A stretch of DNA of 64,000 nucleotides, taken from the NCBI RefSeq assembly GCF_001430825.1, contig NZ_CP010535.1, positions 2,212,501-2,276,500 on the forward strand. Reading direction: 5' to 3'. Under the pieces are notes generated by a model. It made no database searches, was not told where the DNA came from, and saw nothing but the letters and a program-made list of their open reading frames with translations. Positions within the stretch are counted from its first letter, which is position 1, and each line of letters opens with the position of its first letter. Shown in pieces: positions 49,399 to 51,758 of this stretch. The position numbers and the translations under genes are program-made. The stretch comes from Sediminicola sp. YIK13. GTDB taxonomy: Bacteria > Bacteroidota > Bacteroidia > Flavobacteriales > Flavobacteriaceae.

Positions 49399-50385
49399 AT
49401 GGAAGCCTATTCCAAACCAAAACCTGAAAACTGGACCGGACGTGAGTCGGACCAGAACCTATATCTTCATCAAAAGATCAGATTCCTGGACATTGAATCT
49501 TTGGCTCAAGCACAGATCAAAAAATCGGACATTGTCTTTTTAGGTTACGCTTGCGATGAGGGGGTAAAAAGGAACAAGGGAAGGGAAGGTGCACGAATGG
49601 GTCCGGATGCCATTAGAATGCAATTGGGAAAACAACCCGAACATTTATCAGAGACCCAATCTATTTTTGATGCTGGCACAATTGATTGCAATGATGGCGA
49701 TTTAAAAAAAACACAGCGTCGATTAACGCAAACCGTCAAAACATTATTGGGAATGAATGTATTTCCTATTCTTTTAGGGGGTGGCCATGATATAGCCTAT
49801 GCCCATTATAATGGTATTAAGGAACATTTGAAATCCCAAGGAGGTAGCAAAACTATAGGCATAATAAATTTTGATGCCCATTTTGATCTGCGCTCCAATG
49901 AAGATGGCGCTAATTCTGGCACACCTTTTTATCAGATTGCCGAAGAATGTGAAGTGGAAGGAACAGCTTTCCGCTATATGTGCCTGGGCATAAGAAAAGA
50001 TGCCAATAGCAAGGTCCTCTTTGAAACTGCTGAAAACCGTGAAGTCACCTTTGTGGAAAACGAGCATTTTAGCATGCACTATTTGGCCCATGACCTTAAG
50101 ATTATCCAGCATTTTATTAAAGAGGTAGACGTAATCTATACGACCATAGATCTGGACGGATTTTCATCGGCATATGCCCCAGGGGTGAGTGCTCCGTCCC
50201 CATTGGGATTTGCTCCAGACATCGTTATGGAAGTTTTGAAAATAATTATTGACTCCGATAAATTAATAAGCTTGGACATAGCTGAGCTAAATCCAAGCTT
50301 AGACATAGATCATCAAACAGCCAAATTGGCTGCGGGATTAATTCATTTTATAATGCATAGATTGGATTACTCCAACCAAGACTGA
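49399..50385 (+). CDS. hutG: Formimidoylglutamase (ureohydrolase family)
   Basis: Hydrolyses formiminoglutamate to glutamate and formamide, completing histidine degradation. The 328-residue protein has all manganese-binding motifs of the arginase/agmatinase family: GGGHDIAYAHY (near residue 127), NFDAHFDLR (near 155) and TIDLDGFSSAYAPGVSAP (near 250). It is assigned to formiminoglutamate instead of arginine because of the hut neighbours. The 3' end overlaps the convergent hmgA by 19 bp, both genes ending inside each other's last codons. Confidence 0.9.
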   Translation: MEAYSKPKPENWTGRESDQNLYLHQKIRFLDIESLAQAQIKKSDIVFLGYACDEGVKRNKGREGARMGPDAIRMQLGKQPEHLSETQSIFDAGTIDCNDGDLKKTQRRLTQTVKTLLGMNVFPILLGGGHDIAYAHYNGIKEHLKSQGGSKTIGIINFDAHFDLRSNEDGANSGTPFYQIAEECEVEGTAFRYMCLGIRKDANSKVLFETAENREVTFVENEHFSMHYLAHDLKIIQHFIKEVDVIYTTIDLDGFSSAYAPGVSAPSPLGFAPDIVMEVLKIIIDSDKLISLDIAELNPSLDIDHQTAKLAAGLIHFIMHRLDYSNQD

Positions 50386-51524
50386 TAATAGGTTCCATCG
50401 TCAATGTCCAGTGCAGTCTGGGTAATTTGCAAGGGCTTAAATGTATCTATCATTACTGCCAATTCCTCGGTTTTTGTATGGCCAATACTTCGTTCATAGG
50501 CTCCGGGGTGCGGCCCATGGGGAATGCCTGCGGGGTGCAGGGAGATATATCCTTTGTCAATATTATTTCTACTCATAAAATCGCCATCCACATAATATAG
50601 CACCTCATCAGAATCTATATTACTGTGATTATAGGGTGCCGGAATGGATTCCGGATGGTAATCATACATCCTCGGACAGAAAGAGCAGACCACAAAGGCA
50701 CTTGTTTCAAAAGTCTGATGTACTGGTGGTGGTTGGTGTACCCTCCCGGTTATTGGTTCAAAATCATGAATGGAAAATGCATATGGGAAATTGTACCCAT
50801 CCCAACCAACAACATCAAAAGGATGGGAAGCATACGTTAAGTGATGTAATTGCCCTTGTTTTTTAACCTTGATCACAAAATCGCCCCATTCGTCATGTGC
50901 TTTTAAATCTTTAGGCAACTTAAAATCACGTTCACAAAAAGGGGAATGTTCCAAATGTTGGCCAAACCAGTTTCTATATCGCTTTGGAGTATATATAGGA
51001 TGATAGGATTCCGCAATTAACAATCGGTTATCCTCAGTATCAAATGTAATCTGGTAGATCATCCCCCTTGGGATAATAATATAATCGCCATATTCAAAAG
51101 GGATCTCTCCCAACATGGTCTTTAAAATGCCTGTTCCCTTATGGATAAAAAGCATCTCATCGGCATCGGTATTCTTATAAAAATAATCCGTCATGGATTT
51201 TTTTGGAGCGGCAAGACCCACATGCACATCGTTGTTGAAGAGCACAATTTTTCTACTCTCAAGAAAGTCATTTTCCGGCTTTACCTGGAACCCTTTCAAC
51301 AGCCTGGATTTTATGTTGTGTTCCACAGCCGCTTTTGGTCTCATATCAATACTCTTGCCCACTTCCTTGACCATGGTTGGTCGGTGCAAATGGTACATAA
51401 GGGATGACATTCCATCAAAACCTATGGTTCCGAATAATTGTTCATAATGCAAGGTTCCATCTTCCTTCTTAAAAATGGTGTGCCTTTTATGAGGTAGTTT
51501 ACCTAATTTATGATAAAGTGGCAT
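50367..51524 (-). CDS. hmgA: Homogentisate 1,2-dioxygenase
   Basis: Opens the ring of homogentisate in tyrosine and phenylalanine degradation. The 385-residue protein has the iron-binding cluster HPAGIPHGPHPGAYERSIG near residue 330 (His and Glu ligands) and NHSNIDSDEVLYYVDG just before it; the N-terminal half is a degenerate cupin domain. The shorter length relative to human HGD (445) is common in Bacteroidota. It is convergent with hutG, overlapping by 19 bp. The upstream 127 bp to the small-RNA terminator contains only AT-rich sequence with no perfect -7 box. Confidence 0.9.
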   Translation of the reverse strand: MPLYHKLGKLPHKRHTIFKKEDGTLHYEQLFGTIGFDGMSSLMYHLHRPTMVKEVGKSIDMRPKAAVEHNIKSRLLKGFQVKPENDFLESRKIVLFNNDVHVGLAAPKKSMTDYFYKNTDADEMLFIHKGTGILKTMLGEIPFEYGDYIIIPRGMIYQITFDTEDNRLLIAESYHPIYTPKRYRNWFGQHLEHSPFCERDFKLPKDLKAHDEWGDFVIKVKKQGQLHHLTYASHPFDVVGWDGYNFPYAFSIHDFEPITGRVHQPPPVHQTFETSAFVVCSFCPRMYDYHPESIPAPYNHSNIDSDEVLYYVDGDFMSRNNIDKGYISLHPAGIPHGPHPGAYERSIGHTKTEELAVMIDTFKPLQITQTALDIDDGTYYQSWLE

Positions 51525-51651: not shown

Positions 51652-51681
51652 AAAAAAAGCCTCCCATATAGGAAAGCCTTT
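51652..51681 (-). terminator. Intrinsic terminator of the small RNA candidate
   Basis: On the minus strand AAAGGCTTTCC (51671-51681) pairs with GGGAGGCTTTT (51655-51665) across a 5-nt loop, 11 pairs including three G-U wobbles, followed by a run of T. The wobbles work only in the minus-strand transcript, which fixes the direction. Confidence 0.7.
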
Positions 51682-51745
51682 CATTGGTTGGACCGAACAA
51701 CAATTCGGTTTCCACAACCTTGGTCTCAAATGAGACACAACACAA
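51652..51745 (-). ncRNA. Candidate structured small RNA between ndh and hmgA
   Basis: Reading the minus strand, a perfect -7 box (51751-51758) is followed by about 95 nt of tightly packed structure. Hairpin 1 (51719-51750) pairs CTTGG with CCAAG and TCTCA with TGAGA. Hairpin 2 (51686-51719) pairs GGTTG with CAACC and ACCGAA with TTCGGT. Hairpin 3 is an 11-bp G-U-containing terminator stem with a T7 tail. The arrangement of promoter, two hairpins and terminator, without a start codon after the expected transcription start, suggests a stand-alone RNA. It could also be a terminated leader of hmgA. I do not know its class; flavobacterial 6S-like and Flavo-1 RNAs should be compared. Confidence 0.55.
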
Positions 51746-51750
51746 CCAAG

Positions 51751-51758
51751 CAAAGATA
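51751..51758 (-). promoter_or_regulatory. -7 box of the small RNA candidate
   Basis: TATCTTTG on the minus strand matches TAnnTTTG fully. No TTG lies 17-23 bp upstream; the best -33 remnant is a TG at 51781-51782. It is 66 bp downstream of the ndh stop codon, so the RNA has its own start signal. Confidence 0.5.

Follow-up and report, generated by a model that had tools for sequence, protein, structure and literature searches.

A structured small RNA of the Flavobacteriaceae with conserved, co-varying complementarity to the pnp leader

The window analysed here, a stretch of 64,000 nt from Sediminicola sp. YIK13, carries on its minus strand (51758–51652) the box TATCTTTG followed by the gene of an RNA, about 99 nt long, that contains two hairpins and ends in a terminator. 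Judged from conservation, RNA structure, complementarity in trans and co-change, its best reading is very probably that of a small RNA devoted to pnp, the gene of PNPase. We are confident, on these sequence comparisons, that it would act in trans by pairing with the pnp mRNA and controlling it. The RNA has its own promoter box and terminator in the window and its clade, and its complementarity to a distant mRNA is both conserved and co-varying. As to the sign of the control, whose direction and molecular effect we infer, repression is somewhat favoured.

The features of the gene are collected in Table 1. A preliminary description of this DNA had proposed a perfect promoter-like box, two multi-part hairpins, a terminator with G-U pairs and a T-run, and a distance of 127 nt to the start of hmgA. 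The box, the terminator (with a stem of 12 bp) and the distance were all found as described. The two hairpins are also present, in a shorter form: the extra pairings of the longer extents first proposed occur in the fold of the single sequence and are absent from the consensus of relatives. By itself TATCTTTG is not rare: chance alone would give 3.8 copies in the window, and there are three. Its weight comes from its place in relatives, since 62 of 163 distinct gene copies have TAnnTTT(G/A) at 3–6 nt upstream of the RNA core. With a folding energy of −37 kcal/mol, the 99-nt RNA is more stable than its dinucleotide shuffles (−21.9 ± 3.2; z −4.8, none of 200 as stable), and it is the sole match at E ≤ 0.001 in its own genome of 3.57 Mb.

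Table 1. Features of the small RNA gene, in positions of the window
Feature	Position	Strand	Remark
TATCTTTG	51751..51758	(-)	presumed -7 box of the Bacteroidetes-type promoter, TAnnTTTG
small RNA gene	51652..51750	(-)	5' end placed from the position of the box
pairing segment 1 GUUGUGUUG, unpaired	51738..51746	(-)	complementary to CAACACAAC of the pnp leader
hairpin 1 (GUCUC-AUUU-GAGAC)	51723..51736	(-)	variable, covarying spacer
pairing segment 2, GUUGUG linker	51713..51718	(-)	complementary to CACAAC of the pnp leader
hairpin 2 (ACCGAA-UUGUUG-UUCGGU)	51692..51709	(-)	variable, covarying spacer
pairing segment 3 CCAAUGAAAGGC	51676..51687	(-)	complementary to GUUUUUCAUUGG of the pnp leader
intrinsic terminator stem GAAAGGCUUUCC-UAUAU-GGGAGGCUUUUU	51654..51682	(-)	12 bp with G-U pairs, then a T-run

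The RNA is widespread in its family, taken as Flavobacteriaceae from the nearest named relatives of ndh. With blastn, relatives of 71–78% identity over most of the length were recovered together with many shorter matches, and 153 of 397 family genomes gave a match at E ≤ 0.01. A covariance model extended this (E ≤ 0.001) to 273 of the 397 genomes, 239 of the 330 of good quality and 182 of 237 genera. A second model with laxer filters, applied to 39 genomes among which the first had matched G130 alone, found the RNA in 27 at E ≤ 0.001 and in 34 at E ≤ 0.5; the other five gave no match even at the latter threshold. The RNA is present in 27 of the 28 genomes reached through named loci, which include Zobellia, Cellulophaga, Winogradskyella, Psychroserpens, Aquimarina, Mesonia, Salegentibacter and Psychroflexus. 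Among 296 genomes of the order, it was matched in 44 of the 50 listed as the same family, and outside the family just two marginal matches of about 32 bits appeared. General synteny with ndh was rejected: the model matches nothing in the ndh neighbourhoods L055–L112, and 23 of 24 such genomes searched have the RNA elsewhere. The lone miss is a metagenome-assembled genome labelled Saprospiraceae, where the search for rpsO also found nothing. Among phage records, blastn returned six with 34-nt matches, confined to the terminator part.

A common frame is seen both in 48 relatives found by blast and in an alignment of 31 sequences (A1): the RNA begins with GUUGUGUUG, and this, a CCAAUG that is almost invariant and the arms of the terminator enclose two variable hairpins. 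GUUGUGUUG is identical in all 48. The sequences of A1 and of a further alignment (A2) were picked with a pattern demanding GTTGTGTTG and the terminator arms, so that invariance there is partly by construction; the 48 were extracted without the GTTGTGTTG pattern and have the same core, and copies whose core is altered came to light afterwards with the RNA models. The preliminary description had called for covariance among relatives, and both hairpins do covary. Changes on both sides were recorded in all seven model pairs of hairpin 1 and, for hairpin 2, in five of six pairs in A1 and six of six in A4. The covariation score of A1 is 0.295, against 0.152 ± 0.012 after shuffling (none of 500 as high); that of A4, an alignment fitted to the model, is 0.492 against 0.157.

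Promoter box, covarying hairpins, terminator, wide presence and lack of coding conservation together bear out the earlier proposal of an independent small RNA. Coding conservation of an overlapping frame of 62 codons had been named as an observation that would speak against it; this frame is open in two of the 31 sequences, its own included. Two other frames are open in one and three of them, and RNA lengths fall in all three remainders modulo 3. A small protein gene was thus rejected for want of a conserved open frame in the 31 sequences. The suggestion of a 6S-like or Flavo-1 RNA did not hold: in the window, no family of Rfam 15 scores at or above its gathering threshold, sub-threshold matches lying far below, and none does so at the RNA in the loci of 16 relatives from several clades. 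This covers SraG, GcvB, the 6S families and Flavo-1 (RF01705) in the window, and SraG, 6S and Flavo-1 at the relatives' loci. A Flavo-1 RNA does occur at 289–444 of one locus (L198), near the small RNA and apart from it, in what is probably a Flavobacterium genome, to go by the inferred genus.

The pnp leader came into view through a search started from GUUGUGUUG as a possible seed. Its complement CAACACAAC has 15 sites in the genome, one being the RNA gene itself; of the other 14, one lies in sense in the rpsO–pnp gap, whose flanking genes were confirmed as those of S15 and polyribonucleotide nucleotidyltransferase. The RNA (G000:C1:2264153–2264251) and the pnp leader (C1:67510–67591) are far apart on the chromosome. 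In relatives, the leader follows a pattern of GUUUUUCAUUGG, an A/C-rich stretch ending in CAACACAAC, and then CCAUUGUUUAA. The three unpaired stretches of the RNA are complementary to this leader in antiparallel order. One of them, CCAAUGAAARGC, is the conserved stretch before and inside the terminator stem and is complementary to GUUUUUCAUUGG; a third contact, between the inter-hairpin linker and a leader stretch such as ACNAC, is added by RNAcofold.

Among 77 genomes with both partners, the leaders of which were fetched by the position of rpsO and not by motif, CAACACAAC is present in 68 leaders, TTTTCATTGG in 64 and both in 58. All 12 positions of segment 3 pair, G-U allowed, in 42 of 57 genomes, the 12-mers having been chosen as those nearest the consensus of each side. 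Predicted interaction energies in eight genomes range from −12 to −16 kcal/mol, against means of −4 to −7 for shuffled leaders (0–1 of 100 shuffles equal), kinetics, proteins and the pnp transcription start being outside the scope of RNAcofold. A model of the leader, run on 23 family genomes, had its best match at pnp in 22 and placed the pnp site second and weak in G687, with no other site of like strength. As this model (R3) includes the leaders of at least 10 of the 23 genomes, the match at pnp is there by construction, and the informative result is the absence of other sites. The strongest match elsewhere, in G440 (L431, 31 bits), was read and judged to be chance. In 16 genomes of other families, the model found no match better than E = 0.09. 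The GTTTTTC of the leader may instead be a promoter box, a reading that looks less probable: it is inconsistent across genera and differs where the RNA differs (G173, G687 and G022). Part of GUUUUUC could lie upstream of the pnp transcription start.

The two RNAs change together. Across genera, linker and leader form the pairs GUAGU/ACUAC, GUUGU/ACAAC and GUGGU/ACCAC, and there are private combinations such as GAGGUC/GACCUC (G190), AAGUGUGGUA/UACCACACUU (G063), GUUUAGAAAA/UUUUCUAAAC (G173) and UCGUAGA/UCUACGA (G043). Over 47 genomes, the segment 2 duplex averages −7.93 with the own leader and −6.27 ± 0.27 with permuted ones, and the longest Watson-Crick run 6.26 against 4.89 ± 0.14; none of 10,000 permutations did as well in either case, kinship not entering the statistic. 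The result is again 0 of 10,000 with the 26 leaders without ACTAC alone. With the dimer taken as a whole (77 genomes), the mean for own pairs is −18.12 against −15.83 ± 0.21 for permuted ones, with 0 of 10,000 permutations equal and kinship again outside the statistic. Removal of six known same-genus repeats leaves 71 genomes, no two of which share both RNA and leader, with −18.16 against −15.64 ± 0.22 and the same 0 of 10,000.

Individual compensations, read by eye, include RNA UCAAGUUGUGUG with leader CACACAACUUGA (G010), CCAAUGG with CCAUUGG (G130 and G633) and GAAGUC with GACUUC (G173); those of segment 3 are found in G130 with G633, G687, G173 and G022. Segment 1 has changed together with the leader in G010, G020 and G052. 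In G010 all three segments are off consensus, with matching stretches in the leader, and the own partner comes first among the 77 whichever of the two is swapped. The contents of two leaders were predicted before fetching. Of the predicted stretches, CAACACACAAC was present, as an exact match in G052 and with a single U-G in G020. CATCAG was absent from both; they keep CATTGG, where wobbles maintain the pairing and GUUGC/GCAAC extends it.

Several results bound this evidence. Of the 57 genomes of the segment-pair survey, G674 and G685 (wrong anchors) were left out, as were G008 and G369, whose sites are imperfect and whose omission favours the pairing reading; the latter two are included in the 77-genome dimer test. 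For G173, G022 and G687 the anchors were placed manually. The linker test further dropped G279, of the same genus as G063, and five genomes with leader mid-sections shorter than 7 nt, giving the 47. The dimer test dropped G674 and G685 and excluded G052, G088 and G683, whose leaders did not fit the script. At least one position of segment 3 is unpaired in 15 of 57 genomes by automatic anchors, some of which are wrong; true mismatches number two in G063 and G279 and one in G091 and G009. The own leader is seldom the single best partner, with a median rank of 13 of 47 for the linker. Dimer ranks in the 71 genomes have a median of 14: the own leader is first in four genomes, within the best quarter in 41 and in the poorer half in 18. 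Poor ranks among the 77 of the swap test are those of G022 (row 28, column 73), G086 (21 and 19) and G180 (row 60). Segments 1 and 3 are nearly constant in most genomes, so most of the co-change comes from segment 2 and a minority of lineages. Two genomes (G068 and G087) have the leader pattern and no RNA match at E ≤ 0.5.

In the mechanism we propose, GUUGUGUUG, the inter-hairpin linker and CCAAUGAAARGC would zip onto CAACACAAC, the ACNAC-like stretch and GUUUUUCAUUGG of the leader, hairpins 1 and 2 bulging out of the duplex as spacers. As segment 3 overlaps the 5' arm of the terminator and shares bases with it, full use of this segment would open the terminator stem. In the free leader, CAUUGG may form a hairpin with a CCAUUG further downstream, the A/C-rich stretch then being exposed as its loop. 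This hairpin has modest support, two of its seven pairs covarying and RNAalifold predicting no consensus pair on the pnp leader. The RNA would land on the A/C-rich loop and displace the downstream CCAUUG arm. PNPase synthesis would then fall, the ACA-rich stretch upstream of the start codon being masked, the duplex being cut by RNase III, or both. That RNA and leader meet in the cell is itself inferred from their sequences. Pairing would have to work without Hfq, since a search for PF17209 found no match in the genome of YIK13, while five of 14 control genomes matched.

Repression is preferred because the A/C-rich stretch contains ACA, the enhancer motif silenced by GcvB: according to parts of PMC3879156, ACA-rich elements enhance translation in enterobacteria and GcvB silences them. 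The same pairing with the opposite sign is the less probable of the two, though to be taken seriously; the RNA would then protect or activate the pnp mRNA, and PNPase, by degrading the RNA or the duplex, would feed back on its own mRNA. SraG appears, from part of PMC3832800, to raise PNPase in Yersinia pseudotuberculosis, and the title of a paper in the reference list of PMC3997798 offers a precedent. The distance between the last CAACACAAC and the AUG also leans this way (median 56 nt, range 13–106 in 68 leaders), because in most genomes it puts the duplex too far ahead of the start codon for direct occlusion to be the obvious mode. Against these points stands the likeness of the A/C-rich stretch to the ACA motifs that GcvB silences, which argues for repression. 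We consider it improbable that the pnp leader is a sponge titrating an RNA whose more important mRNA targets lie elsewhere. In its favour, CAACACAAC recurs in the same genome, once where a small ORF starts (L251) and once 40 nt before a gene that we take to be of DUF1508 type (L243), and a possible homologue, Rfp18 of F. psychrophilum, has several predicted targets (PMC9723704). However, the pnp leader and all three unpaired segments have evolved in step, and across 23 family genomes the leader model gives no other site that is comparably strong.

The gene occurs in two main settings. In the clade of the window the RNA has its own box; hmgA is commonly the gene downstream of it and ndh often the one on the opposite side. 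Most copies outside this clade follow tRNA-Asp and are without a box at the spacing of 3–6 nt. Among the 163 copies, a count that takes those with the exact GUUGUGUUG core and in which one copy (L048) may figure twice, 82 have a tRNA-Asp 3' end at most 130 nt upstream, none has both this and the box, and 19 have neither. In part of these 19, a box stands at a greater distance and an additional 5' hairpin is present. In six loci (L203, L375, L382, L384, L386 and L390), a TAnnTTTG-like box stands about 25–30 nt before GUUGUGUUG with an apparent small extra hairpin between, which suggests a longer or processed 5' end in this sub-group. The gap between tRNA-Asp and GUUGUGUUG is only 9 nt in L145 and L147, so co-transcription is likely there. 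Many other copies linked to tRNA-Asp have a terminator-like hairpin between the two.

Some loci hold the RNA twice. In L143 (3036–3150 and 7287–7402) and L147 (2976–3090 and 7762–7876) each copy follows a tRNA-Asp 3' end, and in L150 and L156 the two copies are without a repeat of that end; in all four, 2–5 kb of other genes lie between. Those of L143 include a large protein gene and a fragment that we take to resemble an integrase. It seems that an element which enters at tRNA-Asp brings the tRNA end and the RNA along in a spare copy. In Psychroflexus planctonicus, two near-identical copies lie in tandem (L235, 1506 and 1679) at a distance of about 170 nt, and a degenerate tRNA-Asp end precedes the second. 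On the side of hmgA, the product of the gene so named in the window (50367–51524) is a distant member of the homogentisate dioxygenase family, at 71.8 bits against a cut-off of 510.75, and the adjoining gene (49399–50385) encodes formimidoylglutamase (HutG), at 306.5 bits against 229.15.

These settings bear on two readings that would give the RNA another nature. The preliminary description had raised a leader attenuating hmgA, a role suggested by the RNA lying 127 nt upstream on the same strand and by an order that is common in one clade. A strong terminator ends the RNA, though, and it is kept where hmgA is absent nearby and at tRNA-Asp in other lineages; as a general explanation the leader is ruled out by nine loci with a HutG-like gene and no hmgA within 1.5 kb beside the RNA (L005, L006, L011, L014, L015, L018, L020, L024 and L025). 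We regard it as highly improbable, and the RNA is neither an hmgA leader nor a coding gene, because it occurs without hmgA beside it and without a conserved frame. Hardly more credible is an attachment site or other feature of mobile elements instead of a regulator. The paired copies around a few kilobases and the repeated tRNA-Asp 3' end in L143 and L147 would fit it; the single match in most genomes, the covarying hairpins, the own promoter box of one clade and the co-change with pnp would not.

If the RNA is a pnp-pairing regulator, its place beside tRNA-Asp invites a speculative model, which we consider rather unlikely. In most Flavobacteriaceae the tRNA-Asp transcript would yield the RNA, freed by tRNA processing, and its amount would report the capacity for RNA processing. 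Pairing with the pnp leader would close a homeostatic loop between tRNA maturation and PNPase, and elements entering at tRNA-Asp would carry a spare copy, keeping the loop unbroken. In one clade, the RNA would have been cut loose with its own promoter.

Among the closest known systems, SraG is a family of Rfam, encoded at the pnp locus opposite the mRNA, and has reportedly been linked to PNPase homeostasis (by the title of a 2016 paper of Fontaine et al.). Like the present RNA it is a small RNA tied to the level of PNPase, in E. coli and Yersinia; here, in contrast, the RNA gene is far from pnp, with three short pairing segments, and belongs to a different phylum. GcvB works with Hfq, and its R1 is a G/U-rich single-stranded stretch; the likeness lies in a single-stranded stretch pairing with C/A-rich stretches upstream of start codons. 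GcvB has many targets, as part of PMC3879156 relates, whereas one conserved target was found here, in a genome without an Hfq match. A further parallel is the autocontrol of E. coli pnp by RNase III and PNPase, in which a leader duplex after rpsO is the control point (PMC9032294). That duplex is made in cis by the leader itself, whereas here a separate RNA would supply one strand. Decay of E. coli pnp starts with RNase III cleavage of this duplex, according to parts of PMC9032294.

Structured flavobacterial RNAs are also known in Flavo-1 and the 6S-type RNAs, neither of which has a match at the RNA of the window. Rfp18 of F. psychrophilum is likewise a structured small RNA, conserved in Flavobacterium and with at least three stem-loops, as given in part of PMC9723704. 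In a deletion mutant of Rfp18, the mRNAs of two metalloproteases were lower in stationary phase, and the main text of that paper, as far as it was available, does not mention pnp (PMC9723704). The RNA described here might be the same as Rfp18. Within the literature covered, mostly outside subscription journals, there was no report of this RNA, nor of a small RNA pairing with pnp, in flavobacteria.

Control of PNPase by a small RNA is already known from enterobacteria with SraG, and the RNA family described here is absent from Rfam 15; the newness of the RNA itself is not certain, given its possible identity with Rfp18. To our knowledge, few RNA regulators are known in the Bacteroidota, many of which lack Hfq, and it is rare for a base-pairing small RNA to keep one dedicated target throughout a bacterial family. 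The finding names a concrete partner, pnp, whose product is one of the main enzymes of RNA degradation. It would also offer a clear example from nature of co-evolution between molecules, with three short segments changing in step in two RNAs that are encoded apart. The proposed pairing would explain why the sequences of the two hairpins vary freely while the stretches between them are constrained.
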